From the NCBI GenBank assembly GCA_010671905.1, contig JAAHII010000001.1:6030289-6094288 (forward strand): DNA of 64,000 bases, written 5' to 3'. Both the position numbers and the translations under genes were made by a program. This document shows, in pieces, positions 10,909 to 27,362 of the stretch. This DNA comes from Leptolyngbya sp. SIOISBB (GTDB lineage Bacteria > Cyanobacteriota > Cyanobacteriia > Phormidesmidales > Phormidesmidaceae). Numbering within the stretch: position 1 is the stretch's first letter; each line of letters starts with the position of its first letter. A model generated the notes under the pieces. That model ran no database searches. It was not told the origin of the DNA and saw nothing but the letters and a program-made list of their open reading frames with translations.

Positions 10909-13900
10909 TTAAGCGATCACTGGTTCAACCGCATCGACGGTGAAAACTAAATCGTTGAAATCACTGTCGATCCAGTCTTCGAAGGTCCACACACTGCCAT
11001 CTCGCTTGATCCGGTCATGTCCGCGGGCGTTGTCACCAATGGAGCCCAAATTGTGAAGGTCGCCATCAATGAGCAACACCGGCGCATAGAAGGTGCCGCC
11101 AGCCAACACCAATTCAGCGGTGCCGGTTTCACCATTGCCGATAAAGATGTCTGGATCTAACAGATTTTCAGCCACGACGGCTTCGTAACCCTCTTCACCC
11201 GGCAAGAAGCCAGCGACACTGCCGAGAGCATCCGTTTGGTAGAACTTCAGCACGTTATCGAAGGCGGCTTCGCGGCTGAGGCTCGCACTTACGGTGACAT
11301 CGCCGTCAATGCCGGTGAGGTCAACCAAAACATCGATGGGTTCAGCATTGGCAATGTCTTCTGGTGCGACGCCAAAGAGCGTTTGGTACATCACCCGGTA
11401 GATATCGGTGTTGTCGGTGGTATCGGGCAACAGATCCGCATTGAGACCGTAAGTCTTGGACACGATGCCGCCAGCCACGTCAGAACGAGTTGCCCAAGCT
11501 ACGCCAAAGTCAAAGACATCGCCATCAGCATCCGGTGCGCCCGTGGTAAAGGGTTCAAAGATATCGGTGCTGAAGCCCGGCACATCATTGCTACCGTCGA
11601 CGTCATCGACCTGCACTAACACCCCATCAGCCTCAGGACCGAAGGCTTGAGTTTCTGCCTGAACCCGCAGGGTAAAGGGCGTTGCCGTCTCATCCACTTC
11701 ATCATTGGGAAGACCAAATCCACCGATGGGGATATCGTCTACTTCCAAACCACCGGCATCAGAGTCAGCCGCAGTAATAATCAGCGTGTTGGGGTCGGTG
11801 TTGTCCACAAAGTCCATGGCCACGCCGAGTGCTTCATCCGCCCGAATTGCAGCTTCGATGGTGCCCGCCGCGTTGTTGTCGTTACCGAAGTTATCGGTGG
11901 CTTCTTCTTCCATCACGAGGAAAAAGCCGTCGGGGTCGGCATCGAGAATGGGCAGTGCGGCCTCTACCATCTCAGCGATGGTCGGTGGATTCGGGTTGAG
12001 CGGTGGCTGACCGTAGAGAATCAGGTCGCCGTTCTCATCCACGAAGCCATCACGGCGCAGCTCATCTTCAAAGAAGTCGTTGTAGGTATCTTCTGCCCCG
12101 AAGATGCCTAACAGCTTGTCGGTGTTATCGGGGGTAACCGCCAGCAGCTCTTCCCGAGTGAAGACCACAGTGTAACCGGCGGCTTCCGCTTCTTCGATTA
12201 GGTTGCGGCCATCTTCGCGGGTGCCTTCTTCACCAAAGACGCCGATGGTGCCCACGGGTAAGTAGTCAGTTTCCCCCGCACCAAGGATCACGTCCGGGCG
12301 CTGATCTAAGATCTCAGCGGTGATTTCTTCGGTGTTGCCACGATTGTCCACATCGGCCAGGAATGCACCCGTACCGGGCTCGGCGATAAAGCCGGAGTTG
12401 ATGATACCGATCGCTTTACCCGCAGCCTGAGCTTCTTGCATGATGGTGTCAGGCTTACCCGAGAGGGAGACGATTTCTTCACCGCCCTCATCGACGGGGG
12501 CATCAAAACCAAAGCTCCCGGCAAAGGGCTTCACGCCGTAAGCGTGGGTCACCGCACCACCGTTAGACGTGCCCACGATGCGATCGTCCATGTGGCCGAG
12601 GTACACACTCGCATCACTCATCTCGTCCCAGTTCAGGCGACCATCGGGGCCTGCGGACGCAAAACGAGCCGCCGCCCAGTGAGAGGGGCTGGTGCCATCG
12701 GGGTGAAAGAAGATAACGTTGCCGACCTCGGAGGTCGGTTCAGGCGCTTCACGGGGAGCCAAATCGTCGGGCACACCCTCGGGTGCATCCAAGCTGATGT
12801 CAAACAGGCTCTCGTACATCAAGCGGTAGATGCCCGTGTTGTCGATGGTGGAGCCCAGGCGATCGGCCCCTTCGCCCCAGGCTTTGCTGACGATGCTACC
12901 GGCAAAGTCGGGGAGGCCAGCCCAGGCCACGCCAAACTCGTAAACGTTGCCATTGGCTGCCGGGGCGGCTACGAAGGGCGCTGTATCGCTGCCGGTGGTG
13001 CCGTCAAAGGGAACGGTAACGCCGCTGTTTTCGCCCGCTTCATCAAGTTGACGCTGGGTAGTTAGGGTGCCAACGGTTTCACCAGACACATCGTCGACTT
13101 CGAGGGAACCGCCAGCACTATCAGCAGCGGTAATGACGAAGGTGTTGGACTGGACATTTTCAACAAAGTCCTTGGCAACCCCGATCGCTTGGTCGGCATT
13201 CAGAGTGGCATCAATCGCACCCCGAGCATTGTTGGTGTTACCGAAGTTATCGGTACCTTCTTCCTCCAGCACGATGAAGAAGCCTTCCCCATCGTCATCA
13301 CCTTCATTCGCGAAGAGATCTAGCGCCAGGGTGGCCTCAAGCATGTCACCCACGGTGGGGGGATCGGTAAACCCATCGCCATCGGTGTCAAGCACGAGTC
13401 CATCAGGGTTAGGCGCATCGGCGACCGGCTGGCCGTAGGTAACCAACTCACCGTCAGCATCGACGAAGCCATTCTCGATGAGAAAGCCTTCGGGAAATTC
13501 GTTGAAGTTGTCATCCGCCGCAAACATCCCCAAAACCAACTCTGTGCTGGGATCAAGGGCATCCAACTGTTCCTGGTTGTAGACAATGGTATAGCCCAAG
13601 TCTTCAGCGATTTCAACCAGGTTTAGACCATCGGTACGAGTGCCTTCCCCAAAGACCCCGGTGACACCTTCTGGCAGGTAGTCTTGCTCACCGGCCCCCA
13701 TGATCACGTTGTACTTCGCCCGGGGCTGAGCATCCTCTGCGAGCGTGCCATCGCTTTCTGCATCGAAGAAGAGCTGGGCGGTAATGCCTTCGCGATCGCC
13801 TCGGCTAACGGCATCAGCGAAGAACACCCCAGTACCGGGCTCAGCAATGAAGCCAGAGTTGATGATCGCAGTCGGGCGACCGGCAGCAGCGGCTTCTTCT

Positions 13901-14208
13901 AGAATCGTGAAGTCGCTCTCAGAGCCATCAACATTCTGACCCTGTAACCCGGCCAGAGAGGTGTACTCGTCACCATTTTCATCAAAGCCAAAACTGGGGG
14001 CAACGGCCTTGATGCCATAGGCGTGTACCACCGCTCCAGCGTTGGAGGTGGCCACAATCGCATCATCCAGGTGACCGAGATAAACCGCAGATTCGGGGGC
14101 CGTATCCCAGTTGAGGCGACCATCCGGCCCGACTGACTCAAACCGCGCAGCCCCAAAGTGAGACGGATCGGCACCGTCGGGGTGAATAAAGATAACGTTA
14201 CTGGTCAT
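10909..14208 (-). CDS. Tandem alkaline phosphatase-superfamily polyprotein with DUF4114 tail
   Basis: This 1099-residue protein has two homologous PhoA-superfamily domains (~1-480 and ~490-960) and a C-terminal DUF4114 module (~970-1099). Each phosphatase copy starts with a metal-site strand (IFIHPDG or IFFHPDG), has a nucleophile-region motif (TSNAGAVVHAYG or TSNGGAVTHAYG) and ends like PhoA relatives (DNTDIYRVMYQTLFG). Compared with E. coli PhoA, the DSA box reads TSN, the D-x-H-x-x-H ligand block reads TDNFGN-x-NN, and the TADHAH block reads TAADSDA or TAADSAG. Several classical metal ligands are therefore not obvious, and activity or metal preference may differ. There is no N-terminal signal peptide. 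The DUF4114 tail is very similar to those of the 1851-aa and GDPD proteins. A Pho-box-like site lies about 160 bp upstream and a terminator follows. Confidence 0.88.
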   Translation of the reverse strand: MTSNVIFIHPDGADPSHFGAARFESVGPDGRLNWDTAPESAVYLGHLDDAIVATSNAGAVVHAYGIKAVAPSFGFDENGDEYTSLAGLQGQNVDGSESDFTILEEAAAAGRPTAIINSGFIAEPGTGVFFADAVSRGDREGITAQLFFDAESDGTLAEDAQPRAKYNVIMGAGEQDYLPEGVTGVFGEGTRTDGLNLVEIAEDLGYTIVYNQEQLDALDPSTELVLGMFAADDNFNEFPEGFLIENGFVDADGELVTYGQPVADAPNPDGLVLDTDGDGFTDPPTVGDMLEATLALDLFANEGDDDGEGFFIVLEEEGTDNFGNTNNARGAIDATLNADQAIGVAKDFVENVQSNTFVITAADSAGGSLEVDDVSGETVGTLTTQRQLDEAGENSGVTVPFDGTTGSDTAPFVAAPAANGNVYEFGVAWAGLPDFAGSIVSKAWGEGADRLGSTIDNTGIYRLMYESLFDISLDAPEGVPDDLAPREAPEPTSEVGNVIFFHPDGTSPSHWAAARFASAGPDGRLNWDEMSDASVYLGHMDDRIVGTSNGGAVTHAYGVKPFAGSFGFDAPVDEGGEEIVSLSGKPDTIMQEAQAAGKAIGIINSGFIAEPGTGAFLADVDNRGNTEEITAEILDQRPDVILGAGETDYLPVGTIGVFGEEGTREDGRNLIEEAEAAGYTVVFTREELLAVTPDNTDKLLGIFGAEDTYNDFFEDELRRDGFVDENGDLILYGQPPLNPNPPTIAEMVEAALPILDADPDGFFLVMEEEATDNFGNDNNAAGTIEAAIRADEALGVAMDFVDNTDPNTLIITAADSDAGGLEVDDIPIGGFGLPNDEVDETATPFTLRVQAETQAFGPEADGVLVQVDDVDGSNDVPGFSTDIFEPFTTGAPDADGDVFDFGVAWATRSDVAGGIVSKTYGLNADLLPDTTDNTDIYRVMYQTLFGVAPEDIANAEPIDVLVDLTGIDGDVTVSASLSREAAFDNVLKFYQTDALGSVAGFLPGEEGYEAVVAENLLDPDIFIGNGETGTAELVLAGGTFYAPVLLIDGDLHNLGSIGDNARGHDRIKRDGSVWTFEDWIDSDFNDLVFTVDAVEPVIA

Positions 14209-15043: not shown

Positions 15044-15403
15044 CTATGACTCGTTGCCTGTAGTTGAAGCCCCATGATGATGGTCGGTTTCTCGCTCGTG
15101 CATCAGCTCAGCAATTTTTTGATGAATGGCCTGAGCATCAAGAATACCTTTATCAATCAGCAGCTTTTCACAAGCATCGACCCAACGCGCGTAATCGGTG
15201 TGGGTATCGTCAGCGTTAGATTCCGCCATGGCAATTTCCTGGGTGAGTTGGTCAACCCATTCGGCCCAGGTGTAGCGGCGATCGCTCGCCAGTTGATTGA
15301 CGATCGCAAAGGCTGTCGCCTCCCAAGGAGCTTGAAAAACGCGCTCTGGTGAAGCGTCGCTGAGGCCATCTGACAAAGGCTCTTGGGGAAATTGTAGGGA
15401 CAT
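15044..15403 (-). CDS. Nitrile hydratase accessory/activator protein
   Basis: This 119-residue protein resembles the small nitrile hydratase activator family, which is related to the N-terminal half of the beta subunit and helps load the metal. The family pattern is visible in FQAPWEATAFAIVNQLA, YTWAEWVDQLTQEI and YARWVDACEKLLIDKGIL. The end is His-rich (TDHHHGAS), plausible for metal handling. It is the last gene of a minus-strand series alpha, beta-N, beta-C, activator, with only 13 bp between it and beta-C, so co-transcription is likely. A second activator occurs at 25563-25916. Confidence 0.82.
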   Translation of the reverse strand: MSLQFPQEPLSDGLSDASPERVFQAPWEATAFAIVNQLASDRRYTWAEWVDQLTQEIAMAESNADDTHTDYARWVDACEKLLIDKGILDAQAIHQKIAELMHERETDHHHGASTTGNES

Positions 15404-15416
15404 GAATCAGCACCCC

Positions 15417-15785
15417 TTAAGGAACTTCAAGATGAGCGTCAAACAGGTCAAGATAGAGGGCGTCTTGGACAGCCGCCTCGGAACCCCAGAGTTCTTGAGC
15501 GGCAAAGCGGATGCTGTAGACGTGCTGAGGCGATGTGCTCAATCGCTGACCCAACGTATCAGGAAAAACGTAAACGCCATGGGCTCTCACCACCGTGCCG
15601 ACTTTACCGCGCACGTAGCGGGGCAGGCGCGTATAGGTTTTGGGATGCATGACCTTAGCGCGCACTAAATCTCCCACTTGGAATTGCGGGGGCAAGTCGC
15701 TCGCTACCTGGCAGTTTGCTCCCTGCTGCAAAAGGGCCTTGGCAGCAGCAGCAGACATACATTCATTAGGCGGTTCAATCGTCAT
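15417..15785 (-). CDS. Nitrile hydratase beta subunit, C-terminal half (separate gene)
   Basis: This 122-residue protein corresponds to the SH3-like C-terminal domain of nitrile hydratase beta. Visible motifs are FQVGDLVRAKVMHPKTYTRL, PRYVRGKVGTVVRAHGVYVF and HVYSIRFAAQELWG, followed by a closing DLFDAHLEVP. A normal beta subunit (~220-250 residues) carries both halves in one chain. Here the N-terminal half is a separate gene just upstream (38-bp gap) with its own stop. The break falls in the inter-domain linker, and this part has its own ATG and ~35 linker-like residues, so it looks like a genuine split rather than a frameshift. The split recalls thiocyanate hydrolase and other three-subunit nitrile hydratase relatives. 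Confidence 0.85.
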   Translation of the reverse strand: MTIEPPNECMSAAAAKALLQQGANCQVASDLPPQFQVGDLVRAKVMHPKTYTRLPRYVRGKVGTVVRAHGVYVFPDTLGQRLSTSPQHVYSIRFAAQELWGSEAAVQDALYLDLFDAHLEVP

Positions 15786-15823
15786 CGCAATCTTTCAGGG
15801 ACGCTAATTATATCGACTCAAAG

Positions 15824-16138
15824 TCACTCAGCCTCTGCCTTCTGTTTCAAATGGGCCACCCGGGCTTCGATTTCAGCAGGTGACAGCAAATCATGCTCTG
15901 CCAGCAACAGTTCGAGGGCGTAGAGCCACCGCTCATAGTAACTAGAGCTGAGGTATCGCCCTGGTGGGATGCGTTCTGAGGCGTGGCGGGTTTCATCCAC
16001 CGGGAAGTAATTGATAAAGGTGGCAAAGCTCATCGCAAAGACCTTCGCTTCCCAGTCACTATGAAAAACCGGTTCATCTTCCTCAATGGGAATCGGGCCT
16101 AAACCCTGCATGCCGCCCATATCGTGGGGACCATTCAT
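15824..16138 (-). CDS. Nitrile hydratase beta subunit, N-terminal half (separate gene)
   Basis: This 104-residue protein opens with the classic beta-subunit start ([15 protein letters not shown]) and continues [15 protein letters not shown] and [18 protein letters not shown]. It ends in a helical linker ([17 protein letters not shown]) and stops where a full-length beta would continue. The start is supported by an AGGAGG ribosome-binding sequence 7 bases before the ATG. It sits between the alpha gene and the beta C-half, giving an alpha / beta-N / beta-C order and a predicted three-chain enzyme. Confidence 0.87.
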
Positions 16139-16772
16139 CGCGATCGCCTCCTAAGCCGCGACTGGCGTGGGGGGAACTGGGGGGTAGTACCTTGGCCGTC
16201 CCAATCATGGCGTTGCGGGTCACCAGTGCGGCCAACTCTGATTCCGCCAGGGTTTCGGTGCCCCTCGGTCGCTCTGGCAGCACCAGATATCGCAAATCGG
16301 CGTTGCTGTCCCACACGCGCACTTCTACGGTGTCTGGCAGCTCTAGTCCAAACTCCGCAAGGACGCTGCGGGGTTCAATCACGGCCCGCGAGCGATACGC
16401 AAAGGATTTGTACCAGGTGGGGGGCAACCCCAAAATGGCCCACGGATAGCAGGAGCAGAGGGTACACACCACGAGGTTATGCACCTTCGGCGTATTTTCG
16501 ACCACTACCATATGCTCGCTTGAAAATCCCGTCAGGCCCAACTCAGCGATCGCCGCTGTGCCGTCGGCCAATAGTCGGTGTTTAAAGTCCGCATCAACCC
16601 AAGCTTTGGCCACAATCTGAGCCCCAATATGCGGCCCCACGGTGTGTTCATAGTGCTCGATGATGACATCCAGGGCAGCGGGATCCACAATACCTTTCTC
16701 AATCAGCAAAGACTCGATCGCCTTTACCCGCAAGGCAATTTCGGCTTCAGGATGGTGGTGAGAGTCTGTCAT
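16083..16772 (-). CDS. nthA: Nitrile hydratase alpha subunit, cobalt type (3' end probably frameshifted)
   Basis: This is the catalytic alpha subunit, which hydrates nitriles to amides. The metal-binding claw [10 protein letters not shown] is present around residue ~112; Thr at its second position marks the cobalt type. Other family blocks are [42 protein letters not shown] and [17 protein letters not shown]. The open frame runs 56 bases into the beta-N gene with an unnatural tail ([13 protein letters not shown]). If the 6-G run at 16179-16184 were five, the protein would end ...PPTPVAA at a TAG (16151-16153), just before the beta-N ribosome-binding site. An extra base there, real or from sequencing, is therefore likely. 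The divergent neighbour is the isochorismatase-fold gene. Confidence 0.9.
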
Positions 16773-16955
16773 AAGGTTAACAACACCAAGTTTTTTGACG
16801 TCACAAATATGCTGTCAAACTTTCGATATTGAATGGAACCACGTGTGAATTGAATGGATTGTATCAAGATTAGCCTCAAACCCCAACTCGGCGATCGTAA
16901 TGTTGCCGTACTTAAACCAATAAAGATACAGTTCAATTAATTAATCGAGGCGTTT

Positions 16956-17643
16956 ATGGTTTCTGCTAAAACGTACAGTCATCCTTTCCATTTGCCCTTG
17001 GAAAAAACGGCTTTGTTGGTCATTGATATGCAAAATGATTTTTTGTCACCCTGATGGCTTCAACGGTAGCGAATTAGCCCTTGACCTGACTAGAGTTCGA
17101 GCCATCATTCCCTCAATTCAAACCCTACTTGCCTGGGCGCGGCAAACTAAAATTCAAGTCATTTTTACCCGAGAAAGTCACGCGCCAGACTTATCAGATC
17201 TCACCTCTAGTAAACGAACCCGGTATGCCAACGCGGGTTCACCTATTGGTCAACGCGGCAAAATGGGGCGATTTTTAGTCCGGGGTGAACCCGGTGTGGC
17301 GCTAATTGATGAACTGCAACCCCAACCGCAAGAATGGCAGTTGGACAAGCCTGCTCACTCCTGTTTTGTGGCGACTGACCTGGATCAAAAATTGCGCATC
17401 GCCCACATCACTCATTTGTTGATTGCCGGAGTCACAACAGAATGCTGCGTATTGGCCACCTATCGTCATGCCAGCGATCTTGGCTATTACTGCCTCCTTC
17501 TAGAGGATTGCTGCGCGGCTTTCAATCCCCAAGACCATGACGCCACCATCCACATTTTGCAGTCAGAGGGCGGCGTTTTAGGCTGGGTAGGCAATTCTCC
17601 GCAGCTCTTTGAGTCGTTATCGGCTCTTTCCACAAAAGACTAA
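16956..17643 (+). CDS. Isochorismatase-family cysteine hydrolase, frameshifted near its start
   Basis: This is a predicted amidohydrolase of the isochorismatase fold, a family that hydrolyses small amides, biuret, nicotinamide and similar compounds. The natural start is ATG at 16956 (MVSAKTYSHPFHL), leading to ALLVIDMQNDF with the catalytic Asp. A 6-T run at 17039-17044 then breaks the frame; with five T the protein continues DFCHPDGFNGS in the frame of the downstream part. The Lys (QLDKPAHSCF) and the nucleophilic Cys region (AGVTTECCVLATYRHASDLG) are intact. It sits divergently next to the nitrile hydratase alpha gene and upstream of the ABC transporter. A role in cleaving the amide made by nitrile hydratase is possible but inferred from position. 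Confidence 0.82.
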
Positions 17644-17980
17644 ATGGCCAATTCCTGGTTTTGAGCGCCCCCCTCTGCAGCCCCGGAACTGTAGAGCGAT
17701 AGGGGGCACAAGGTGACTCGGTGGAGCAGTTGTGAATGGGAGTTTTCGCGATCGCGCCCCGCTCACCCAGCCCACTGAAATCCGAGCATCCGAGAATGCG
17801 ATATTCATTATTCCGTAAACTAAAGAACTTTATTTACTGTATCAGCAATAATCTGTTCCTTCCTCTGCTGAAACTGTGCTTTCAATTACAACGGTTCCCT
17901 CTTCAGTCATTTACTGTCTAACCACGTCCCGCTCCTTGTAGATGACTCGCATTCGGTTGATTTCCTTGAGGTGAAGCGTC
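17644..17980. other. Intergenic region before the ABC transporter operon
   Basis: This 337-bp region must contain the promoter of the three-gene transporter operon. A GAGG ribosome-binding sequence lies about 9 bases before the first gene's ATG. I saw no NtcA (GTA-N8-TAC) site and no other recognised element. Confidence 0.4.
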
Positions 17981-19045
17981 ATGACCCAGACTTCCCAGTG
18001 GCTAAAACGGCTGTTGCCCCTGACTGCCAGCGTTTTTCTCGGGGTTGCCTGCGCCGCTCCCGAAGCGACTGAAGCACCTTCAGAGGCACCCGCAGCCGAT
18101 GCCTCTGAGGGGGGTGACGCTGCTGAGGAGCTGATTTCGGTCAAGGCCGGGCATTTAGTCGCGTTGGATATGGCTCCATTATTCGTAGGAGTAGAATCAG
18201 GCTGTTTTGCTGACAATGACCTAGCTGTAGAAACCGTATTTTTTACGAATCCAGGTGATAACAATGCTGCCTTAGCCGGGGGGCAAATCGACTTTAGTAC
18301 AAATCCCTTTACACTGCCTTTCTTTGCGGCTAATAGTGGCGTGCCGATCAAGACGGTTGCTGCCGCTGGTGGGTGGGGAGTCATGCAGGTGATTATTAAT
18401 AATGAGTATGGAGTAGAATCGGTTGATGATTTAGTGACTTTTGTGTCCGAAAATCCCGATACTAAGCTCAAAATTGCGACCCTGCGCGGTGATACCTTAG
18501 AGCTAATTTTGGTAGATGCTTTTGAGGCAGCAGGCATTAGCGTCGAGGCCTTTGAAATGGTCTATTTTGATGATCTGTTGGCCATGGTCGATGTCTTTCG
18601 AGTTGGGGAAGTCGATGTGTTGAGTCACATCAAGCCCTACACCACCCAGTTTGTCGCTAGCGGTGAGGCCACGGTGCTGACCGACAATGCGGAAGTTTGG
18701 TCTCCCACGACGCCAAACACCGTCGTCAGCGTCCTAGAAAATACCTTGGACGAACGTCCCGAAGTGGTTGAGGCGTATATTGCCGGATTGCAGTGTGCGG
18801 CAGAAATCATCAACACCGAGCCAGACGCGGCGATCGCCCTGTTGACTAACGGTAACTATTACCGCGTTGAGGATGACGTGTTGCTCACGGCCTTTGAGAC
18901 CCAGCCCGCTCCCATTACGTTTACGCCCGATTTAGAGGCGGTGCAGACGGTGGTCGATAAGATGGTGGAGCTGCAGTACATTGAGTCGGATGTGCCCGCC
19001 GCTGAGATTTTTGACACCGCCATCGTCAAAGAGCTAGAGAAGTAA
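17981..19045 (+). CDS. ABC transporter substrate-binding lipoprotein, SsuA/NMT1 type
   Basis: This 354-residue periplasmic binding protein belongs to the NMT1/SsuA group, whose members bind sulfonates, nitrate, pyrimidine precursors, taurine and related small molecules. The N terminus is a lipoprotein signal (LTASVFLGVACAAP, lipobox Cys ~24) followed by a low-complexity Ala/Glu/Pro linker. The mature part shows the fold's hallmarks: AGHLVALDMAPLFVGVESG, a DFSTNPFTLPFF pocket region and KIATLRGDTLELIL. Its gene is followed after one base by the permease and then the ATPase. The ligand is unknown; location inside the nitrile hydratase region suggests an N-containing compound such as a nitrile, amide or thiocyanate. 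Confidence 0.88.
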   Translation: MTQTSQWLKRLLPLTASVFLGVACAAPEATEAPSEAPAADASEGGDAAEELISVKAGHLVALDMAPLFVGVESGCFADNDLAVETVFFTNPGDNNAALAGGQIDFSTNPFTLPFFAANSGVPIKTVAAAGGWGVMQVIINNEYGVESVDDLVTFVSENPDTKLKIATLRGDTLELILVDAFEAAGISVEAFEMVYFDDLLAMVDVFRVGEVDVLSHIKPYTTQFVASGEATVLTDNAEVWSPTTPNTVVSVLENTLDERPEVVEAYIAGLQCAAEIINTEPDAAIALLTNGNYYRVEDDVLLTAFETQPAPITFTPDLEAVQTVVDKMVELQYIESDVPAAEIFDTAIVKELEK

Positions 19046-19046
19046 C

Positions 19047-19856
19047 ATGCCTCAGTCTTCTCCGGGTGACCCAGCTTGGCAGCCCTCTCTGCTCGCGATC
19101 ACCTGTGGGCTGCTGTCGTGTGGGCTCCTCGTCGGCATTTGGGAAATGGCGGGCAGCAATCCAGCCAATCCGGTGACGCAGGTGTTGCCGCCGCCGTCAC
19201 AGTTTTTGCCAGCGTTGTTTGAAAGTGACTTTAAGGTGGGGTTGGGCTCGCAATCGGCGTCCATTTATCAATCGGTGACTGTAACGCTCATTCGTGTCTC
19301 TTTGGGCATGGCGATCGCCTTTGTCGGCTCCATTGCCTGTGGCCTACTCATCAGTCTTTCCAAGTGGTCAGAGCTGTTTATTCTCCCGATTCTGGGGTTG
19401 ATGGCCCCGATCGCGCCCATTGCCTGGGTACCCCTCGCCCTCGTCGTCTTTGGCGTCAGCAATCTGACGGCGGTGTTTATTGTGTTTATGGGGGTGTTCT
19501 TTACGCTGACGATCGCCACGGTTGCAGAGATTAAGCGGATTCCAGAGCCGCTGTTAATGACGGCTCAAAATTTGGGCGGTGGCAGTTTTAACCGCTGGCG
19601 TTGGGTGATCATTCCCGCAGTGTTGCCAGGAGTGTTTACCCTCTTGAGACTCAACTTTATTGCGGCTTGGATGGCCGTTTTGGCGGCAGAAATGACCGGA
19701 TTGCGCGATGGCCTGGGCACGGTGGTCATGACTGGGCGCAACCTGTTCAACAGCAATCTCATTCTGCTGGGCATCTGCATCATTGGCATTACCGGATTTG
19801 CCGTCGATCGCCTGCTGTTGTTCATTCAGCGCAAGTTTTTCTGGTGGCAGGTGTAG
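19047..19856 (+). CDS. ABC transporter permease, SsuC type
   Basis: This 269-residue integral membrane protein of the BPD_transp_1 type has about six membrane segments. The EAA-like loop that docks the ATPase is visible (LMTAQNLGGGSFNRWRWVII followed by PAVLPGVF). It starts one base after the stop of the binding-protein gene and ends 2 bases before the ATPase start, so the three are co-translated parts of one importer. The family matches nitrate/sulfonate/taurine-type permeases; the substrate is not readable. Confidence 0.9.
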   Translation: MPQSSPGDPAWQPSLLAITCGLLSCGLLVGIWEMAGSNPANPVTQVLPPPSQFLPALFESDFKVGLGSQSASIYQSVTVTLIRVSLGMAIAFVGSIACGLLISLSKWSELFILPILGLMAPIAPIAWVPLALVVFGVSNLTAVFIVFMGVFFTLTIATVAEIKRIPEPLLMTAQNLGGGSFNRWRWVIIPAVLPGVFTLLRLNFIAAWMAVLAAEMTGLRDGLGTVVMTGRNLFNSNLILLGICIIGITGFAVDRLLLFIQRKFFWWQV

Positions 19857-19858
19857 GT

Positions 19859-20719
19859 ATGGAGCGTGGTCCCTTTTCCCAATCACCCTTCTCGACTGGC
19901 CCCATCCTTTCCTGCCAGCAGCTGACGAAAGGGTTCGCGCGGGGACGTCAAACCACCACCGTTTTAGAAAACATCCATCTGGATGTGGTACCAGGGGATT
20001 TCGTCACCATTTTGGGGCAATCGGGCGGTGGCAAATCGACCCTGTTACAGCTTCTAGGCGGCTTCACTGCGCCCACTCAGGGGCAAGTGCTGTTTCACGG
20101 CGTGCCCCTCAAAGGCATTACCCCCAAGATCGGTATGGTCTTTCAAGAAAACACGCTGTATCCCTGGCTGACGGTAGAGCAAAATATTGGCTTTGGGTTT
20201 AAAGTCAGGGGCAAAAAGCGGCACCAATATCAGCATCAGGTTAGCGATGTCTTAGAGCAGGTGGGTCTAACTCAAGCCCGTGCCCTTTACCCTCACCAGC
20301 TCTCAGGGGGCATGAAGCAGCGGGTGTCGATCGCCCGTTCCATTGCGGTGCAACCCGACGTGTTGTTGTTAGATGAACCTTTCTCTGCTCTCGACATTCA
20401 ACTGCGGCGACGGTTGCAAAGTTTTTTATCAGCGATTTGGCAGGACACTGCGACGACGATGGTGCTGGTGACCCACAACGTTGAAGAAGCGATCTTGCTC
20501 GGTCAAAAGCTGCTGGTGATTGGTGACAAACCCGGTCGCATCATTGAAACGGTCGATATCGCCGCGCCACCCTTTCGCGATCGCTACGACCCTCAATTTT
20601 TAGCGTTGCAGCGCCATTTAGAAACTGTGATTGAAACCGATGCCCAGACCCAAGCCGCAAACCGGCAGAGCATGTATGAAACCTTGTCTCCGCCTGCCCC
20701 CAACCCCATCAGACCTTAA
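19859..20719 (+). CDS. ABC transporter ATPase, SsuB/TauB type
   Basis: This 286-residue ATPase powers the SsuA/C-type importer. Walker A is GQSGGGKST, the Q-loop is MVFQENTLYPWLTV, the signature is LSGGMKQRVSIARSI, Walker B is VLLLDEPFSALD, and the switch His is in LVTHNVEEAI. The start is ATG at 19859, 2 bases after the permease stop; a longer open frame upstream is only antisense or out-of-frame permease sequence. The C terminus carries a ~25-residue Gln/Pro-rich extension. Confidence 0.93.
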   Translation: MERGPFSQSPFSTGPILSCQQLTKGFARGRQTTTVLENIHLDVVPGDFVTILGQSGGGKSTLLQLLGGFTAPTQGQVLFHGVPLKGITPKIGMVFQENTLYPWLTVEQNIGFGFKVRGKKRHQYQHQVSDVLEQVGLTQARALYPHQLSGGMKQRVSIARSIAVQPDVLLLDEPFSALDIQLRRRLQSFLSAIWQDTATTMVLVTHNVEEAILLGQKLLVIGDKPGRIIETVDIAAPPFRDRYDPQFLALQRHLETVIETDAQTQAANRQSMYETLSPPAPNPIRP

Positions 20720-20761
20720 ATGAGAGTTGCCTGGGGGACACACTCCCCCAATTTGCCGACC

Positions 20762-21286
20762 TCAAGGCTGGACTCGGGCCGGGTATTGCGCCTTATGAAT
20801 TTTGAGAATGGTGCGAGAATCTAGCCGCTTTACGTCTGAATGACTTTTGAGGGAATTAATAAACGCCAACAGATCTTGATTGTCTTTGTAAATGTATTCC
20901 AGCATGAGATTCAACTCCCCCGTGACCGAAGCAATGTAGCTGATATTTTCCATCGCCATCAGCTGATTGAGGCTGGTTTCTAAAAAGGACGGCTGCACCT
21001 CCAGTTCTAGATAGGCCACATTTTCATGTTTGACTTTACCCGTATTGATAAAGGCACTGATGGAAATAATGGCTTCGTCTAGCAAACGCTTGACGCGATA
21101 CCGAATGGTCGCTTCTGGGGCATCAATTGCTCGGGCGATATCGCTATAGGCGATGCGGCCATTGCGCTGCAGGCATTCAATAATTTTTAGATCGAGCTGG
21201 TCAATTTCATAGCCGTCAAGGGCTTTACCGGAGAAATCATCATTCGGCATCAGGTTGGGGGCGTTAGAGGCGATCGCTGGTTGCAA
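20762..21286 (-). CDS. Lrp/AsnC-family transcriptional regulator
   Basis: This 174-residue regulator has an N-terminal winged helix-turn-helix (DQLDLKIIECLQRNGRIAYS then DIARAIDAPEATIRYRVKRL) and a C-terminal RAM ligand-binding domain (YLELEVQPSFLETSLNQLMA, SVTGELNLMLEYIYKD). Members sense amino acids or other small nitrogen metabolites and often control neighbouring genes. It converges on the transporter operon and is the only dedicated regulator in the nitrile hydratase region, so local control is likely. The start could be Met1 (21286) or Met13 (21250); the HTH begins well after either. Confidence 0.88.
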   Translation of the reverse strand: MQPAIASNAPNLMPNDDFSGKALDGYEIDQLDLKIIECLQRNGRIAYSDIARAIDAPEATIRYRVKRLLDEAIISISAFINTGKVKHENVAYLELEVQPSFLETSLNQLMAMENISYIASVTGELNLMLEYIYKDNQDLLAFINSLKSHSDVKRLDSRTILKIHKAQYPARVQP

Positions 21287-21825
21287 CTATCCATATTACC
21301 GACTTACCAGTTTTCTACAGTCCAGCCATAAGAATTACAGATTTCGCAAGCTCAAGACAGAATTTTCAGATTTCAGCAATCAAAATGTAGCGAGGTCTAC
21401 GATTTGCCAAATTAACAAACGATATCTTAGACGTTAGAAAACTTGAGTATTCAAGGTGATACGGTGCTTGGTCTTTAGACCTTGATAGACGACTCTGATT
21501 TTTCTTCTGCAGGGATATTTTCGGACTGTTCGATCACGTTCAAATAAGGTATTGCAGCATCGACTCGTGGTTCAGATGAGTCAGGTTAAAGCGAGTTTGA
21601 GATCTCTAATTTTCCTTTGGAGTGCCTGACTTCTTGGCTGACTCGCAGCGTCAAGCATCTGCAGCAGGTCGCCGAGTTTGTTGAATCAGTAATCTTCGAT
21701 TTTTTGGCAATCCTCAGGTTTATTTCGTAAACACATTTGCTCAGGCAGCCCACAGAGTTCGTGGCATCAAAGCAAGATTCTGAAAGCTTTTTAGGCAAAA
21801 CCCATTGTGAAGGAGGGAGTCTACG
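21287..21825. other. Intergenic region between the regulator and the DUF1097 gene
   Basis: This 539-bp region lies between divergent genes and must hold both promoters. A small palindrome GGTCTTTAGACC is seen near 21472-21483. No coding frame or RNA gene was recognised. It is the natural place to look for Lrp-family binding sites. Confidence 0.4.
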
Positions 21826-22329
21826 GTGCAGCAATCCGAAGCATACAGCATCAGTATTGGCGTTTTAGGGGGAGTCGATGTTTTCTTGACGGCGACGGTG
21901 ATTCCAGTTCCCGTTTGGGTGACGTTTACCGCTTGGGCCTCGTTTTTTATCGTCGGCGGTGGCACTCGCGGGTTCGTCAAATCGATCGCTTGCAATATTA
22001 CCGGCATTATCATCGCGGCTCTATCTTTGTTAGCGATTGATTTGATTGGTGCTAGTCCAATTGTTGCGGCCATCTGTGTGGGCATTGGCAGCGCGGGCAT
22101 GGTGCAAGCCTCTAAATTGCCGTTTACCCACGGCATTACCCCCGCGATTGTTTGGGGCTTTTCGCAGACGGTGGGCACGGTGGCGGTGACTGGGCTATCG
22201 GTCACCGCCCCGCTACCTAACAATCCCGTTTTAATTGCGATCGCGGCCATGATTTTGGGCGCTATTTTTGGCTACCTTTCTGAGGCTTGGGGCAATGCCA
22301 TGACGTCGTCGCTACAGCCCGAGAAGTAA
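21826..22329 (+). CDS. DUF1097-family membrane protein
   Basis: This 167-residue, highly hydrophobic protein has about five membrane segments and the DUF1097-like pattern (WVTFTAWASFFIVGGGTRGF, then VKSIACNITGIIIAAL). Family members are inner-membrane proteins of poorly known function. Translation starts with GTG at 21826, preceded by a GGAGG-type ribosome-binding sequence (AAGGAGGGAG about 10 bases upstream). It is the first gene of a plus-strand series DUF1097, CobW, nitrile hydratase beta, alpha, activator. A role in moving a nitrogen compound or cobalt is possible but only positional. Confidence 0.7.
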   Translation: MQQSEAYSISIGVLGGVDVFLTATVIPVPVWVTFTAWASFFIVGGGTRGFVKSIACNITGIIIAALSLLAIDLIGASPIVAAICVGIGSAGMVQASKLPFTHGITPAIVWGFSQTVGTVAVTGLSVTAPLPNNPVLIAIAAMILGAIFGYLSEAWGNAMTSSLQPEK

Positions 22330-22383
22330 AGGTTTCGCAGTCGTTCAACTTGCAATCGCTAGTTCAGGGAGTTTCCAGCATTT

Positions 22384-23367
22384 ATGGCATTGATTCAAAA
22401 AGTTCCAGTCACCGTGCTCACCGGCTATTTAGGGGCGGGCAAAACCACGTTACTGAACCGCATCTTGACGGAAAATCACGGTCAGCGGGTTGCCGTCATT
22501 GTGAATGAATTTGGCGAAGTTGGGATTGATCATCAGTTAGTGATTGATGCCGACGAAGAAATTTTTGAGATGAATAACGGCTGCATCTGCTGCACTGTTC
22601 GTGGCGATCTGATTCGCATTATTGGCAATCTCATGGCCCAGGGCGAGCCCTTTGATCATCTCGTAATTGAAACCACGGGCTTGGCCGATCCGGCACCGGT
22701 GATTCAATCCTTCTTTACTGATGAAGTGATGGCGCGGCAAACGCAGCTCGATGCCGTGGTGACGGTGGTAGATGCCAAACACGTGGAAGCCCACTGGGAT
22801 AGCCACGAGGTGCAGGAGCAAGTCGCCTTTGCCGATGTGCTGTTGCTCAACAAGACAGATTTGATTGCTCCCGAGCAGCTCCAGATCTTGGAAGCCAAAG
22901 TGCGGGGCATCAACGCGATCGCCACCATCTACTCCACCCAAAACTGTGAAATCAGCCTGGACAAACTGCTGGGTGTGCAGGCCTTTGATCTCAAGAATGC
23001 CCTGAGCATTGATCCTGAATTTTTAGAGGAAGATGCTCACGAACATGATGACTCGGTGTATTCCGTCGCGATTACCGCCACCGGCACCGTGGACAGCGAC
23101 AAACTGAATCGCTGGCTTTATCAGCTCGTACAGGCTAAAGGGGCCGACATCTTTCGTATGAAAGGCATTTTGGATGTGGACAACGCCGATCGACGCTTTG
23201 TGTTTCAGGGCGTACACATGACGTTGGATGGTCGCCCTGGTAAACCCTGGCAACCCGGTGAGCAACGCCGCAGTGAACTGGTGTTTATTGGCCGCAATCT
23301 GGATGAAGACGAGTTGCGCCAAGGCTTCCAAACCTGTTTGGCACCGGTGTATGCCGACGTGACCTGA
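22384..23367 (+). CDS. CobW-type G3E GTPase, probable metal chaperone for nitrile hydratase
   Basis: This 327-residue P-loop GTPase of the COG0523/CobW group handles metal delivery. Walker A is [12 protein letters not shown] (~residues 15-26). The metal-binding CxCC motif is [13 protein letters not shown]. The GTP base-specificity motif is LLNKTDL. The C-terminal CobW_C domain includes [20 protein letters not shown] and closing [15 protein letters not shown] short His/Asp-rich linker (EEDAHEHDD) precedes it. COG0523 proteins accompany cobalt nitrile hydratases in other bacteria. It lies 45 bp upstream of the beta subunit gene, so a role in cobalt insertion is well supported by context. Confidence 0.87.
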
Positions 23368-23412
23368 GCCTCGTTGAATCTTGACTGACCTTGTTGAAAG
23401 TGACCTAATCTG

Positions 23413-24168
23413 ATGAAATTACAGCATTATCTGGGGGGTTTAGAAAACCTCGACCCCGTGAATTTTGAAACCCAGGTGTTTGTCGAGCCTTGGGAACAGC
23501 GCATTTTTGGCATTCATACTGCCATGATGGCGCTGAGCAATCATCTGGGGGAGTCGCTGCCGGATTATGACATCACACAGGTGCCCACTGAGTTCAAAAG
23601 TTTTTGGACCTGGGGCCATTTGCGTATGGGGGCCGAGGGGCTGCAGCCGTTTGAATATTTTCGGCTGCGTTACTACGAAAAGTGGTTGGGGGGCATCTCC
23701 GGCTTCTTCGTAGAGGAAGGCTATATCACTCAGGAAGAACTGGACCAGCGGACAGCGGAAATTTTAGCCGATGAAGCGAACGCCCAAGCCCCCTTGCCCA
23801 GTGGCGGTGACGCGGCCATTGATGAGCAAGTGGTGAAGTACTTGCTTGAAGGGGATTCACCGATGCGTCCCCTGCCAGCTGCTCCCATGTTCAGCGTGGG
23901 CGATCGCGTGCGGGTCAAAAACATTGTCTCTGCCGACCACACCCGCCTACCCGGTCACATTCGCGGCCGCGTGGCAGAAATCGTCAAAGTCTATGACGAG
24001 GCCTACACCTACTTTTTCAAGACCACGGATGGCATCGGCACGCCCATGCCGATTTACAGCATCGCCATCCAGGCCACCGACATCTGGGAGCCCTCCCTGG
24101 CGGATGCCAAATCGGTCTATTACAACGACGTTTTTGAAGTGTATCTGGAGTATTTGGAAGCAGGCTAA
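23413..24168 (+). CDS. nthB: Nitrile hydratase beta subunit (full length)
   Basis: This 251-residue beta subunit keeps both halves in one chain. The N-terminal helical half runs MKLQHYLGGLENLDPV, FVEPWEQRIFGIHTAM and FEYFRLRYYEKWLGGI. The SH3-like C-terminal half runs FSVGDRVRVKNIVSADHTRL, GHIRGRVAEIV and YNDVFEVYLEYL. It belongs with the alpha gene at 24773, but a 600-bp repeat-filled gap separates the two. It differs clearly from the split beta at 15.4-16.1 kb, so the two enzymes are paralogues of separate origin rather than a recent duplication. Confidence 0.92.
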   Translation: MKLQHYLGGLENLDPVNFETQVFVEPWEQRIFGIHTAMMALSNHLGESLPDYDITQVPTEFKSFWTWGHLRMGAEGLQPFEYFRLRYYEKWLGGISGFFVEEGYITQEELDQRTAEILADEANAQAPLPSGGDAAIDEQVVKYLLEGDSPMRPLPAAPMFSVGDRVRVKNIVSADHTRLPGHIRGRVAEIVKVYDEAYTYFFKTTDGIGTPMPIYSIAIQATDIWEPSLADAKSVYYNDVFEVYLEYLEAG

Positions 24169-24241
24169 GAGCCAACCGATTCACCCCAGAACGGCTTAGT
24201 ACAGCGTAAAGTAAGTTTTCTACCGTTATCAACGGAGGCTT

Positions 24242-24329
24242 GATCCCCCAACCCCCTTAAAAAGGGAGGCATCCCAATCCAGATACTGAATAGCCCCTTT
24301 TTCAAGGGGGGCGGCGACAGCGGGGGATC
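24242..24329. repeat. Short interspersed palindromic repeat (GATCCCCC type)
   Basis: Terminal 8-bp inverted repeats (GATCCCCC at 24242-24249 and GGGGGATC at 24322-24329) enclose inner arms ACCCCCTTAAAAAGGG and CCCCTTTTTCAAGGGGGG. A related but interrupted copy flanks the ISAs1-type element (26095-26150 and 27331-27362). It is likely a non-autonomous MITE or REP-like element. Confidence 0.7.
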
Positions 24330-24420
24330 GAGCTACGATCGCTGCCGTACGGCACAAAACTTAGTTTCCAGAGTACTTAGGAACGCGGATGAATTAATGC
24401 ATCGTTTTAGTTTGTCGGAG

Positions 24421-24440
24421 GGGCGCACGGCCGTGCGCCC
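24421..24440. repeat. Perfect 20-bp palindrome
   Basis: GGGCGCACGG is followed directly by its exact complement CCGTGCGCCC. It lies between the GATCCCCC repeat and MITE copy 1, in the gap between nitrile hydratase beta and alpha. It may form a hairpin that attenuates transcription across the gap. Confidence 0.6.
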
Positions 24441-24475
24441 GTAACCAGATTGGGGATTTTATTAAATCCTGATTC

Positions 24476-24661
24476 CTTAGGATCGGAAATTAAATAATGT
24501 GCTGGTTTATCCCCTGTCGGGAGGGGTGCCCGCAGGGCGGGGTGGGTGCCAATCGCTCGCACTACTGACCAACCCACCCCGTTGCCCCTCCCAGGAGGGG
24601 ATATGACATCCGGCTTTGCTTCAAAGCAAATTACGGATTTTATTAAATCCTGATTCCTTAG
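24476..24661. repeat. MITE family A, copy 1
   Basis: This 186-bp non-coding element has terminal inverted repeats (CCTTAGGATCGGAAATTAAA at the left, complement of CTAAGGAATCAGGATTTAAT at the right). It has an internal GC-rich near-palindrome built of CCCTCCCGA/GGGAGGGG and CCACCCCG-type arms. A 27-bp direct copy of its right end also lies immediately to the left (24454-24480). Copies 2 (31181-31365, inverted) and 3 (45332-45506) confirm a family. It occupies the gap between the beta and alpha genes. Confidence 0.8.
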
Positions 24662-24772
24662 CCAGGCCAGGCCACCCCTTCGAGCCTGCCGTTTGACCGG
24701 TGATTCCAGCCACCAAAATCAGTCTTCCTGTCCAACTGCCCATTTTGAACCTGACGCCGAGAGGAGCGCATA

Positions 24773-25396
24773 ATGCCCAGTAACTATCCAGGATTTGGCT
24801 ATCCTGCTGATCGAGAAACCGTCAGTGCTGCCAAGGTCAAAGCCCTAGAATCGCTATTGATTGAGAAGGGCGTCATCACCAGCAATACGGTCGATACCGT
24901 GCTCAGCCATTTTGAGACCAAGATGGGGCCGTTTAATGGGGCCAAACTGGTAGCGCGGGCATGGGTCGACCCGGAATTTAAAGAGCTGCTGATCGCTGAC
25001 TGCAATGCCGCCTGCCAGCAAATGGACTTTCCCGAAGGTATGTCCGGGGCGGAAGGGGAACACATGCGCGTGGCCGAAAACACCCCCGAAGTCCACAACG
25101 TCATTGTCTGCACCCTCTGTTCCTGTTATCCCTGGCCTACCCTCGGACTGCCCCCGTACTGGTACAAAGATCCGACGTTTCGGGCACGGGTCACGCGGGA
25201 GCCACGCGTCGTGCTCTCAGAGTTTGGGGTCGAGCTGGACGACTCGGTCGAGGTGCGCCTGTGGGATACCAGCGGTCAGATTCGTTGGTGGGTCTTGCCG
25301 CTGCGCCCTGAGGGAACTGAAGGCATGAGTGAAGAAGAACTCGCTGCTCTGCTCACCCCAGAAGCCATGATGGGCGTCGCAACGGTCAAGGTCTAA
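24773..25396 (+). CDS. nthA: Nitrile hydratase alpha subunit, cobalt type (second enzyme)
   Basis: This intact 207-residue alpha subunit carries the metal claw [10 protein letters not shown] at ~residue 111; Thr indicates cobalt. The conserved frame includes [44 protein letters not shown] and GLPPYWYKDPTFRARV. A ribosome-binding sequence GAGAGGAG lies 6 bases before the ATG. It is related to, but clearly different from, the alpha at 16.1-16.8 kb (for example PEGMSGAEGEHMRV against [11 protein letters not shown]). It is followed by an activator gene. Transcription must cross or restart after the repeats that separate it from beta. Confidence 0.94.
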   Translation: MPSNYPGFGYPADRETVSAAKVKALESLLIEKGVITSNTVDTVLSHFETKMGPFNGAKLVARAWVDPEFKELLIADCNAACQQMDFPEGMSGAEGEHMRVAENTPEVHNVIVCTLCSCYPWPTLGLPPYWYKDPTFRARVTREPRVVLSEFGVELDDSVEVRLWDTSGQIRWWVLPLRPEGTEGMSEEELAALLTPEAMMGVATVKV

Positions 25397-25562
25397 GCCC
25401 AACTCTCTAAAACACGACTACAGATTTTGCTCCCTTGCTCCCAACTCCATCACATCCTCACTCGTCCGAAATCTGTAACCTCAAAACAGAGAATCGTCGG
25501 TATAAGCCATGTTTCTGCCTGCTGATATCGCTCCCCTGCTGAATCCTTTTCCATACCTGTGC

Positions 25563-25916
25563 ATGTTTACTAAATTTGAACACTTTGCCGCCACCAGTTT
25601 GATGGGTTCTCCCGAAGAGGCCCCCCCACGTCAGGACGGACATCTGCAGTTCGATCGCGAGTGGGAAAAGCTGGCTTTTGGAGTGGCGATCGCCCTCTCG
25701 AAGCAAGGCTATTTTGAGTGGGAAGACTTTCGCCAAACGCTGATTGCCACCATCGCCGAGTGGGAAGCGACCCACGAACTAGATGACCCCGAGTGGGACT
25801 ATTACCAGTGCTGGCTGGCCGCCCTCGAAAAGTTAGTCGTGGAGGCTGGGGTTGTGGGGGCAGAAGAATGGCAAACCCTGGTAACTCAGCTGCTCGATTG
25901 CAAAGCCACGACCTAA
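25563..25916 (+). CDS. Nitrile hydratase accessory/activator protein (second copy)
   Basis: This small activator is of the same family as the 15.0-kb gene, related to the beta subunit N-half. The core is visible as QFDREWEKLAFGVAIALSKQ, YFEWEDFRQTLIATIAEWEA and YYQCWLAALEKLVVEAGVV. It is the last gene of the second nitrile hydratase set. The open frame extends upstream to 25509, but the added residues do not look like the family. Starts at 25563 (MFTKFEHFA) or 25602 (MGSPEEAPP) are both plausible; I chose the former. Confidence 0.82.
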   Translation: MFTKFEHFAATSLMGSPEEAPPRQDGHLQFDREWEKLAFGVAIALSKQGYFEWEDFRQTLIATIAEWEATHELDDPEWDYYQCWLAALEKLVVEAGVVGAEEWQTLVTQLLDCKATT

Positions 25917-26150
25917 CCGTCGTCCTACTTTCACTAAACAGCTCGCTTTAGGCTGCAACCGCTGCTTTCCTTAGTGCAGAGAGGATTTATTCCTTTTCGC
26001 CTACTTTCCCTTTAGGACTTACGCAGTTGAAGCCGATTTGGGTACCTTGAATCTCCAAACGGTCGGGAAATTATACTGATTCTGCATGACAGCCCGACCC
26101 TTAAAAAGGGGAAATCCCAGCTTGAATCGGAGTGAGCCCCCTCCTGGGAG

Positions 26151-27330
26151 TAGGGTTGATTCATTGTAGTGAGAGTAAAACCTGGTCAAGTCGATTGGCG
26201 AAAAACCGTTTGGCCTGAGCGATGGAGTCCAGATTGAACCGCCGTGCTGCCGTGATGAAGAAATTGCGAATGGTCGAGTAGTTAGCGGCAGTGTTGGCCG
26301 CGCGTTGCGGTGCCCGGTCTTCGTTGAGGACAACATCTTTCGGCCAATGCAAGCGATTCTCAATCGACCAATGCCCTTGTAATCCTTTTAGAAAGGTCGC
26401 CGCATCCGCATCCAGGTTACTGATGTAATAGTGGGTTTGGGCAAAGGGCCGCCTTTCACGGTAGCCCCATCGTTCGACACACAGCCCCCGCTGCAGTCCT
26501 GGCCACGACTCGGCCCAGTCCTGGCCAGTCACCTCATAGACCGACACTCGGCGATAGACCCAACGGCCATGACTGCGGTCTTCGCGTTGTTCGCAATCGA
26601 GCGGTTCCTGGTGCTCACTCACCTGTTTCAGGGCGTTGAGCAACGTCGGTTGATTCCCCTTCACCGTCAAGAGGTAGTAAGCTTTTTGCTGGTGTAGGCA
26701 GGCGACCGTTTTTTTTGACAATGCAGTGCATCCGCAGTGACTAACACCCCTTCGAGGTCAAGGGTCGCGAGCATCTGCTGGACGACTTGCTGTTCACTTT
26801 GATGCTGGTTTTCCATCCCCTCACTGGCATAGACAAAGCCCCGGCGATGTCCAAACAGACTGACCATCATGACAAAGTTTTGCTGGGCGCTGGCGTAGTC
26901 CTTCATCGTCCCCTTGATGCTCTTGCCGTCAATGGCCACCCACTCCGCTTCGCTTAAGGGCACCGATGCGGCCGCCCACTGGCGAAAGATGCGCGTTAAA
27001 ACAATAAAGTCGCACTGCTCTAGCACCCGCCGGAACGTCGAGTCCGAAGGGGTCGCCGAGCGCACCGGACGGTTGAGTTGGCGACAGAGTTCCCCGCCGT
27101 ACTGTTGCGCAAAGGTTTCCATCGGGCGAGCGCCCCAGTAGCCGCACATCGCGCCGGTAATCAGCAACAACAACAGTAGCCAGAGCGGATAGCGCAGGCC
27201 CCGTAAGTGGCGAAAGTCCTCGGCGGTTTCCAGAAGAGTCAGTAAGGGAAAGTCCATCTTGCATTCCTAACAGCAACATCCCCAATAAGACCTATTCTCA
27301 TTTTTCTCTTCCGACAATGAATCAACCCTA
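26151..27330 (-). mobile_element. ISAs1-type insertion sequence
   Basis: This 1180-bp element has inverted ends: TAGGGTTGATTCATTGT at the left (26151 on) and the complement of ACAATGAATCAACCCTA at the right (ending 27330). The match continues imperfectly for another ~10 bp. It carries one transposase gene on the minus strand. No clear target duplication is seen, but the flanks on both sides match the two halves of the GATCCCCC repeat, so it inserted into such a repeat. Confidence 0.85.
26161..27257 (-). pseudogene. ISAs1-family transposase, split at an A8 run
   Basis: The upstream part (27257 to ~26720) carries the ISAs1 N-terminal and first catalytic blocks (FRHLRGLRYPLWLLLLL, WVAIDGKSIKGT, LVTADALHCQ). 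The downstream part carries YLLTVKGNQPTLL, HYYISNLDADAATFLKGLQG and the end block HWSIENRLHWPKDVVLNED with the catalytic Glu. The two are in different frames, joined at eight consecutive A (coding strand, 26710-26717). A -1 slip there gives CQKKTVACLHQQK, matching the expected protein. This could be a base deletion, a sequencing error or real ribosomal slippage. Confidence 0.85.
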
Positions 27331-27362
27331 CTTCAACAAGGGGGCAGCGACAGCGGGGGATC
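27331..27362. repeat. Right half of the GATCCCCC repeat cut by the ISAs1-type element
   Basis: The sequence CTTCAACAAGGGGGCAGCGA and following bases up to GGGGGATC (27355-27362) match the right half of the repeat at 24242-24329. The left half, more degenerate (CCCTTAAAAAGGGG), lies at 26095-26150 on the other side of the insertion sequence. Confidence 0.65.

Follow-up and report, generated by a model that had tools for sequence, protein, structure and literature searches.

Three-chain members of the nitrile hydratase (NHase) family are known: the toyocamycin nitrile hydratase (TNH), which acts in nucleoside-antibiotic biosynthesis, and the cobalt thiocyanate hydrolase (SCNase) of Thiobacillus thioparus (PDB 2DD4), whose chains are homologous to NHase alpha and to the N- and C-terminal parts of NHase beta (beta-N and beta-C). 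TNH contains two copies each of alpha, beta and gamma chains of 21.2, 10 and 11.4 kDa (PMC8574189; published work is cited here from excerpts). The Pseudomonas putida NHase has the gene order alpha-beta-activator (P14K) and the Rhodococcus type the order beta-alpha-activator (PMC3511329). NHases have been noted in cyanobacteria (PMC3323583, PMC10098168), and nthA and biuH in nitrifier genomes, where the excerpted text does not join them in one cluster (PMC12625717). We analysed 64,000 nucleotides of the 8.3-Mb genome of the cyanobacterium Leptolyngbya sp. SIOISBB (GenBank GCA_010671905.1, contig JAAHII010000001.1; G000:C1:6030289-6094288), hereafter the window, and found that two cobalt-type NHases, an importer and an enzyme of an amide-hydrolase fold form a conserved unit. 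What seems new is how the genes are combined and linked, and that the combination occurs in Prochlorococcus; among the matches listed, titles and abstract openings in the open-licence PubMed Central literature did not describe this cluster.

A conserved cluster of two nitrile hydratases

We searched the alpha subunit of the first NHase set (alpha-1) against 388 sampled cyanobacterial genomes, counting matches of at least 78% identity as set-1 alphas. Nineteen genomes carried one, and in all 19 a set-2 alpha lay on the same contig within ~13 kb. These loci share a split set-1 beta (19), the set-2 alpha, beta and activator (19), cobW (19), the importer (18), DUF1097 (17) and an Lrp-type regulator (17, with one clipped by the chosen locus boundary). 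Fifteen loci, the window among them, have an orthologue of the hydrolase; three have a different hydrolase of the same fold, and one, where the contig ends, has neither. Profile searches confirmed the order and coordinates that a preliminary description, made from the letters alone, had given for two distinct cobalt NHases with an SsuABC-type importer, isochorismatase-fold hydrolase, Lrp regulator, DUF1097 protein and CobW GTPase between them. That description called the cluster unusual in a cyanobacterium and proposed a search for the same gene set in others. The 19 carriers answer the proposal, and the rarity of NHase as such was overstated: an NHase-alpha relative (E<=1e-10, via an SCNase-gamma profile) occurs in 61 of 376 sampled cyanobacterial genomes. 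The cluster comprises the following genes, in window positions:

15044..15403, minus strand: set-1 activator (NHase accessory protein, NhlE/P14K type); TIGR03889, 62.5 bits, cut-off 46
15417..15785, minus strand: set-1 beta C-terminal subunit (beta-C); PF02211, 108.5 bits; a separate gene also in set-1 relatives
15824..16138, minus strand: set-1 beta N-terminal subunit (beta-N); PF21006, 118.1 bits
16083..16772, minus strand: set-1 NHase alpha, motif CTLCSC; TIGR01323, 298.4 bits, cut-off 249.85; DNA comparison
16956..17643, plus strand: isochorismatase-fold cysteine hydrolase, biuret/guanylurea-hydrolase-like; PF00857; unbroken in relatives, frame change near 17045
17981..19045, plus strand: substrate-binding lipoprotein, NMT1/SsuA-like; PF13379 and PF09084; below the TIGR01728 cut-off
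19047..19856, plus strand: ABC permease; PF00528
19880..20719, plus strand: ABC ATPase; PF00005; approximate start, extent taken from relatives (a longer listed open reading frame, ORF, runs from 19601)
20762..21286, minus strand: Lrp/AsnC-family regulator; PF13404 and PF01037
21826..22329, plus strand: DUF1097 membrane protein; PF06496
22384..23367, plus strand: CobW/COG0523 GTPase, motif CICC; PF02492 and PF07683, and translation
23413..24168, plus strand: set-2 NHase beta, unsplit; TIGR03888, 203 bits, cut-off 152.2
24773..25396, plus strand: set-2 NHase alpha, motif CTLCSC; TIGR01323, 288.3 bits, cut-off 249.85
25509..25916, plus strand: set-2 activator; TIGR03889, 80.2 bits

At least four arrangements occur: the window type; set 1 directly after set 2 in L026 (L and G numbers are our handles for loci and genomes), which lacks importer and hydrolase and ends ~1 kb past beta-C; both sets in one direction with an alternative hydrolase in L065 and L066; and a second CobW beside set 1 in L059. 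Since linkage is preserved despite this rearrangement, we argue for a functional tie between the two sets. The co-occurrence is not reciprocal, as many genomes have set 2 without set 1, and the 19 set-1 genomes are mutually related and so are not 19 independent cases. A further locus, L034 (G020), was found by a separate search outside the 19; its contig ends in the permease.

Set 1 encodes a hydratase with a split beta subunit

Set 1 consists of four genes on the minus strand in the order alpha, beta-N, beta-C and activator. The preliminary description of two alpha/beta/activator sets thus holds for set 2 and missed the division of beta in set 1. The set-1 alpha carries the cobalt motif and exceeds the NHase alpha cut-off, and both NHase beta domains are present on two chains. 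Against the one-chain beta model TIGR03888 these chains score 107.2 and 112.9 bits; as each half misses the cut-off, we regard set 1 as a split variant of cobalt NHase. Beta is encoded by two genes in all 19 relatives' set-1 loci (the 18 non-window census genomes and L034). The two conserved Arg regions of NHase beta have a catalytic role, and their set-1 counterparts, DETR and TRLPRY(V/I)RG, are kept in 19 of 19 relatives' sets and in the window. Together, these features lead us to infer cobalt-type NHase activity for set 1 and, from its own profile matches, for set 2.

PDB 3QXE, which we take to be the cobalt NHase of P. putida NRRL 18668, is among the closest solved relatives of the set-1 alpha and is the closest of beta-N. 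We know of no such importer or hydrolase beside that NHase, and its beta is one chain where set 1 has two. The P. putida enzyme and set 1 share the alpha-beta-activator order (PMC3511329); because set 2 has the Rhodococcus order, one cluster joins both NHase types. The set-1 chains are similar in size to the three chains of TNH, a likeness by description that does not imply common descent of the split.

Near its 3' end, alpha-1 has one base more than two relatives, in or beside a run of C (DNA comparison). Owing to this extra base, the last ~28 residues are in a frame that differs from relatives, the stop before beta-N is lost and the read-through overlaps beta-N.

The set-1 alpha profile brought in 80 named loci, in which beta-N and beta-C occupy separate ORFs in L081, L082 and L086 (cyanobacteria) and in L087 and L119 (metagenome-assembled genomes, MAGs, of Rhodospirillales and Rhodospirillaceae). 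L089 had no beta match, and the rest had a one-chain beta, in some cases matched only or partly by the set-2 beta profile. In a quick alpha tree, the 21 set-1 rows, with Prochlorococcus (two copies), fall on one side of a branch with SH-aLRT 100, and set 2 (35 rows) has a branch with SH-aLRT 99. L161 repeats L086 and L082 repeats L068, hence the 21 set-1 rows represent 20 genomes; L081 (= G003) was left out. The split label requires three changes on this tree, which has many weak branches, with L087 and L119 placed elsewhere; their split may reflect a frame error in metagenome assemblies. In L119 (3285-5724), an unsplit beta lies upstream of an alpha that is itself followed by split beta-N and beta-C. 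We also observed a third, divergent NHase alpha (50-56% to set 1, motif CSCYPRA) in L031 (12890-13881), L023 (1266-2263), L064 (4044-4631), L068 (1695-2300) and L027 (4378-4935). The L031 and L023 loci also show a beta-C match, and L031 has an extra ABC ATPase and permease nearby.

Set 2 is linked to candidate metal-supply genes

By its sequence, set 2 is an ordinary beta-alpha-activator cobalt NHase accompanied by a CobW GTPase and DUF1097. It shares its gene order with Rhodococcus rhodochrous J1-type cobalt NHases (PMC3511329) and differs in being tied to a COG0523 GTPase. Nha3-type COG0523 activators are described, in the excerpted text, as found exclusively with Fe-type NHase genes (PMC2770081), which makes a COG0523 GTPase beside a cobalt-type NHase a notable difference.

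A HupE/UreJ-like gene is present in 26 of 36 relatives' loci searched and adjoins the set-2 activator in 25 of the 26; it is partial or broken up in L022, L031 and L035 (the last at a contig end). In Synechocystis, cobalt transport has been attributed to HupE (PMC4284471). This gene is absent from the window, where transposase-like ORFs follow the set-2 activator; several ORFs at 26022-31137, where relatives have the HupE gene, resemble transposase pieces by eye. The gap between set-2 beta and alpha (24169-24772) is 604 bp, compared with 8 to 290 bp in 32 relatives' loci, and may hold an insertion.

Plasmid pAQ4 of Picosynechococcus sp. PCC 7002 carries the complete set-2 module (GTPase, DUF1097, nthB, nthA, accessory protein and HupE/UreJ), its alpha being 85% identical. 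It encodes a single NHase alpha across the whole plasmid, the only replicon searched, hence no set 1 on pAQ4. One set-2 alpha subgroup (L065, L066, L069, L070, L072, L074, L075 and L032) has CTMCSCYP in place of CTLCSCYP, and the L068 and L082 alphas (two identical rows) have CSLCSCYP.

The hydrolase resembles biuret and guanylurea hydrolases

Divergent from set 1 runs an operon of hydrolase, binding lipoprotein, permease and ATPase, followed by the Lrp gene on the opposite strand. The preliminary description recognized the isochorismatase fold of the hydrolase without noting its proximity to biuret and guanylurea hydrolases. Among solved structures, triuret (TrtA) and biuret (BiuH) hydrolases come closest to it. 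The Asp-Lys-Cys triad is kept: all 15 relatives' orthologues and the Prochlorococcus protein have its Lys and Cys, and their Asp lies within IDMQ or VDMQ. At two substrate positions, TrtA K132/BiuH K145 and TrtA Q202/BiuH Q215, these same proteins and the window hydrolase have His and Glu. Lys and Gln occupy these positions in TrtA, two BiuHs and the eight plasmid homologues examined (taken from 5 of 30 matches listed, of 887 records found). Substitution of Lys145 left BiuH effectively without activity and Gln215Glu increased its KM more than 25-fold (PMC5806882), and the position of that glutamine has been proposed to decide between biuret and triuret (PMC7948467).

A parallel is found on pMET-2, whose guanylurea hydrolase is active on guanylurea and barely on biuret (PMC9800807; we matched the published enzyme to the pMET-2 gene via its deaminase neighbour). 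It is 45% identical to the cluster's hydrolase and shares Glu at the TrtA-Q202 position, with Tyr rather than His at the K132 position. The pMET-2 operon likewise joins an SsuA-like binding protein, isochorismatase-fold hydrolase, permease (26% identical to the cluster's) and ATPase; it differs in having a nucleoside-deaminase-like gene and no NHase. Glu in place of Gln may thus mark guanylurea hydrolases, a criterion drawn from one characterized enzyme, and the residues of the cluster's hydrolase point to a urea- or guanidine-like amide. In L059, L065 and L066 the slot is filled by an alternative hydrolase of the same fold (27-28% identical), which resembles one on L173. In all four, Tyr stands in place of the Lys and the alignment has a gap opposite the Gln, a pattern that would neither help nor harm a guanidine-like assignment.

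In the window, one extra T relative to two relatives (T6 compared with T5 and CT4) puts the N-terminal part, which holds the catalytic Asp, upstream and in a different frame from the rest. The frame is open through the catalytic Asp in fifteen relatives. Because the extra bases in the hydrolase and in alpha-1 both sit at homopolymers, they are likely assembly errors, the alternative being true lesions.

The set-1 module occurs on a plasmid and in Prochlorococcus

Beyond the census, the set-1 module is found on a Gloeocapsopsis dulcis plasmid (L173, NZ_CP119970.1), with a set-2-type alpha (67%) 103 kb away on the same plasmid. The alpha gene of the module is preceded at 0.8 kb by a tyrosine recombinase gene, and IS6 transposases flank the module at distances of ~7 kb on the upstream and 4 kb on the downstream side; given these flanking genes, the module can probably move. 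Near the set-2-type alpha, cobW is in two separate pieces (245656-247572), the second with stops, and may be interrupted.

Prochlorococcus AG-355-J09 (L086) also carries the module, on a contig that ends in beta-C. The GC content of the module (29.6%, compared with 31.6% over the opening 5 kb of the locus) speaks against contamination. In 400 sampled genomes of this cell's family, five had any match and only AG-355-J09 had a set-1-type alpha. Checking for phage carriage, we found no relative of its alpha in viral_contigs, and only distant matches of its permease in phage records. Elsewhere in the family, L164 (871-1848) and L165 (1498-2568) encode NHase-alpha-like proteins with CTVCSCYP and, by eye, twin-arginine-like N-termini, which would suggest an exported NHase.

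A proposed route for nitrile nitrogen and its alternatives

We propose that the cluster comprises two linked modules through which a nitrile serves as nitrogen source. In module 1, the SsuABC-type importer would bring in a small polar nitrile, the three-chain cobalt NHase (alpha, beta-N, beta-C) would hydrate it to the amide, and the isochorismatase-fold cysteine hydrolase would split off ammonia, under regulation by the Lrp-type protein. Module 2, consisting of the two-chain cobalt NHase, its own activator, the COG0523 GTPase and DUF1097, joined in many relatives (not the window) by a HupE-type metal permease, would extend the cluster to a second range of substrates and may provide cobalt for both enzymes. 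We consider it reasonably probable that importer, hydratase and hydrolase act in series on one nitrile with ammonium as the nitrogen gain. The preliminary description had suggested such a path of uptake, nitrile-to-amide and amide-to-ammonia conversion, which fits the gene content and is strengthened by the conservation of the set; gene content, conservation, linkage, catalytic residues and nearness to NHase over SCNase are observed directly, while from them we extrapolate to the enzyme activities, the order of steps, the metal, the nitrile itself as the imported compound and nitrogen assimilation as what the cluster is for.

A more specific and decidedly doubtful proposal is that module 1 is dedicated to an N-cyano or guanidine-like nitrile, for example cyanoguanidine, which would be hydrated to guanylurea and yield ammonia and a guanidine-like product to be finished by cyanobacterial guanidine enzymes. 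We propose this substrate family because the hydrolase residues and the pMET-2 parallel fit it.

Several observations weigh against these proposals. The hydrolase of the window assembly is itself out of frame. The Prochlorococcus AG-355-J09 assembly (94% complete) has no set-2 alpha and one alpha match only; if it is representative, set 2 is not strictly needed. An AlphaFold2 model of the binding protein, built with four sequences, reached a pLDDT of only 38, and the pMET-2 binding protein is just 22% identical to that of the cluster. Guanidine-I riboswitches occur elsewhere in 9 of 9 set-1 carriers, but also in 29 of 39 genomes overall, and cyanoguanidine is mainly known as a synthetic compound. 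NtcA nitrogen control is at best hinted at: the pattern GTAN8TAC lies upstream of the binding-protein gene at 4 of 20 loci and upstream of lrp at 4 of 17, where the background rate predicts ~0.5 in each case, although these loci are related; it lies upstream of none of a1 (21), biuH (17), cobW (19), duf1097 (17), b2 (19) or a2 (20). No Rfam family reached its gathering score in the cluster, where one chance-level match fell below it.

Among the rival explanations, we find it unlikely, if still credible, that the hydratases act on a nitrile made inside the cell, to detoxify or tailor it, and merely adjoin an unrelated importer of sulfonates or some other solute. The binding protein is only SsuA-like, scoring 88 bits against the aliphatic sulfonate importer model TIGR01728 (cut-off 163.5), and set 2 occurs without an importer in many genomes. 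Against this account, 18 of the 19 census loci place the importer next to the split hydratase and a hydrolase, as do Prochlorococcus and the G. dulcis plasmid, despite changes in gene order. That set 1 is instead a three-chain cobalt SCNase, so that the cluster uses thiocyanate (a substrate suggested in the preliminary description), is very improbable. Its three separate chains, a feature of set 1 only, recall SCNase, and SCNases have been reported in Cyanobacteria by a BLAST criterion (PMC10098168), a further point against nitrile use. The set-1 alpha is partly similar to the SCNase gamma model TIGR03887, at 190.3 bits (set 2, 190.1), but the cut-off is 291.45, and no genome among the 376 exceeds it. 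The set-1 chains score much nearer NHase than the T. thioparus enzyme: beta-N matches NHase beta at 2e-20 versus SCNase beta at 9e-4, and beta-C matches NHase beta at 3e-27 versus SCNase alpha at 1e-6. Thiocyanate hydrolysis would need no amide hydrolase. On the profile scores and census we reject SCNase.

We give even less credence to a module for breaking down biuret, triuret or a nitrile converted to biuret. The best solved relatives of the hydrolase are the triuret and biuret enzymes, but both substrate residues are replaced in the orthologues, at positions where the published BiuH variants were impaired, and the hydrolase of G012 scores 211 bits, far below the BiuH cut-off of 370. Allophanate hydrolase (TIGR02713) exceeds its cut-off nowhere in the window genome, and in 3 of 9 set-1 carriers among 39 genomes. 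The two residues, together with the lack of an over-cut-off allophanate hydrolase in the window genome, led us to reject biuret/triuret hydrolase.

If nitrile use in series is correct, cyanobacteria including a marine Prochlorococcus cell would possess an importer-coupled route to nitrile nitrogen, a source seldom considered. Carriage by a Prochlorococcus cell and a desert cyanobacterium would, if the N-cyano proposal holds, imply an unrecognized natural source of nitrile nitrogen. The cluster would also give three-chain NHases another biological setting, outside antibiotic biosynthesis and thiocyanate use, and link a COG0523 GTPase and HupE permease to a cobalt NHase. Substrate identity is testable, as PCC 7002 carries module 2 and unbroken module-1 sequences exist.

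Surroundings of the cluster

Very large multidomain phosphorus-scavenging proteins flank the cluster on the minus strand at 3718-14208 and 31514-35014. They measure 1851 aa (Exo_endo_phos, Phytase-like, Phytase and PhoD domains), 1099 aa (alkaline phosphatase) and 1166 aa (GDPD and Phytase-like).

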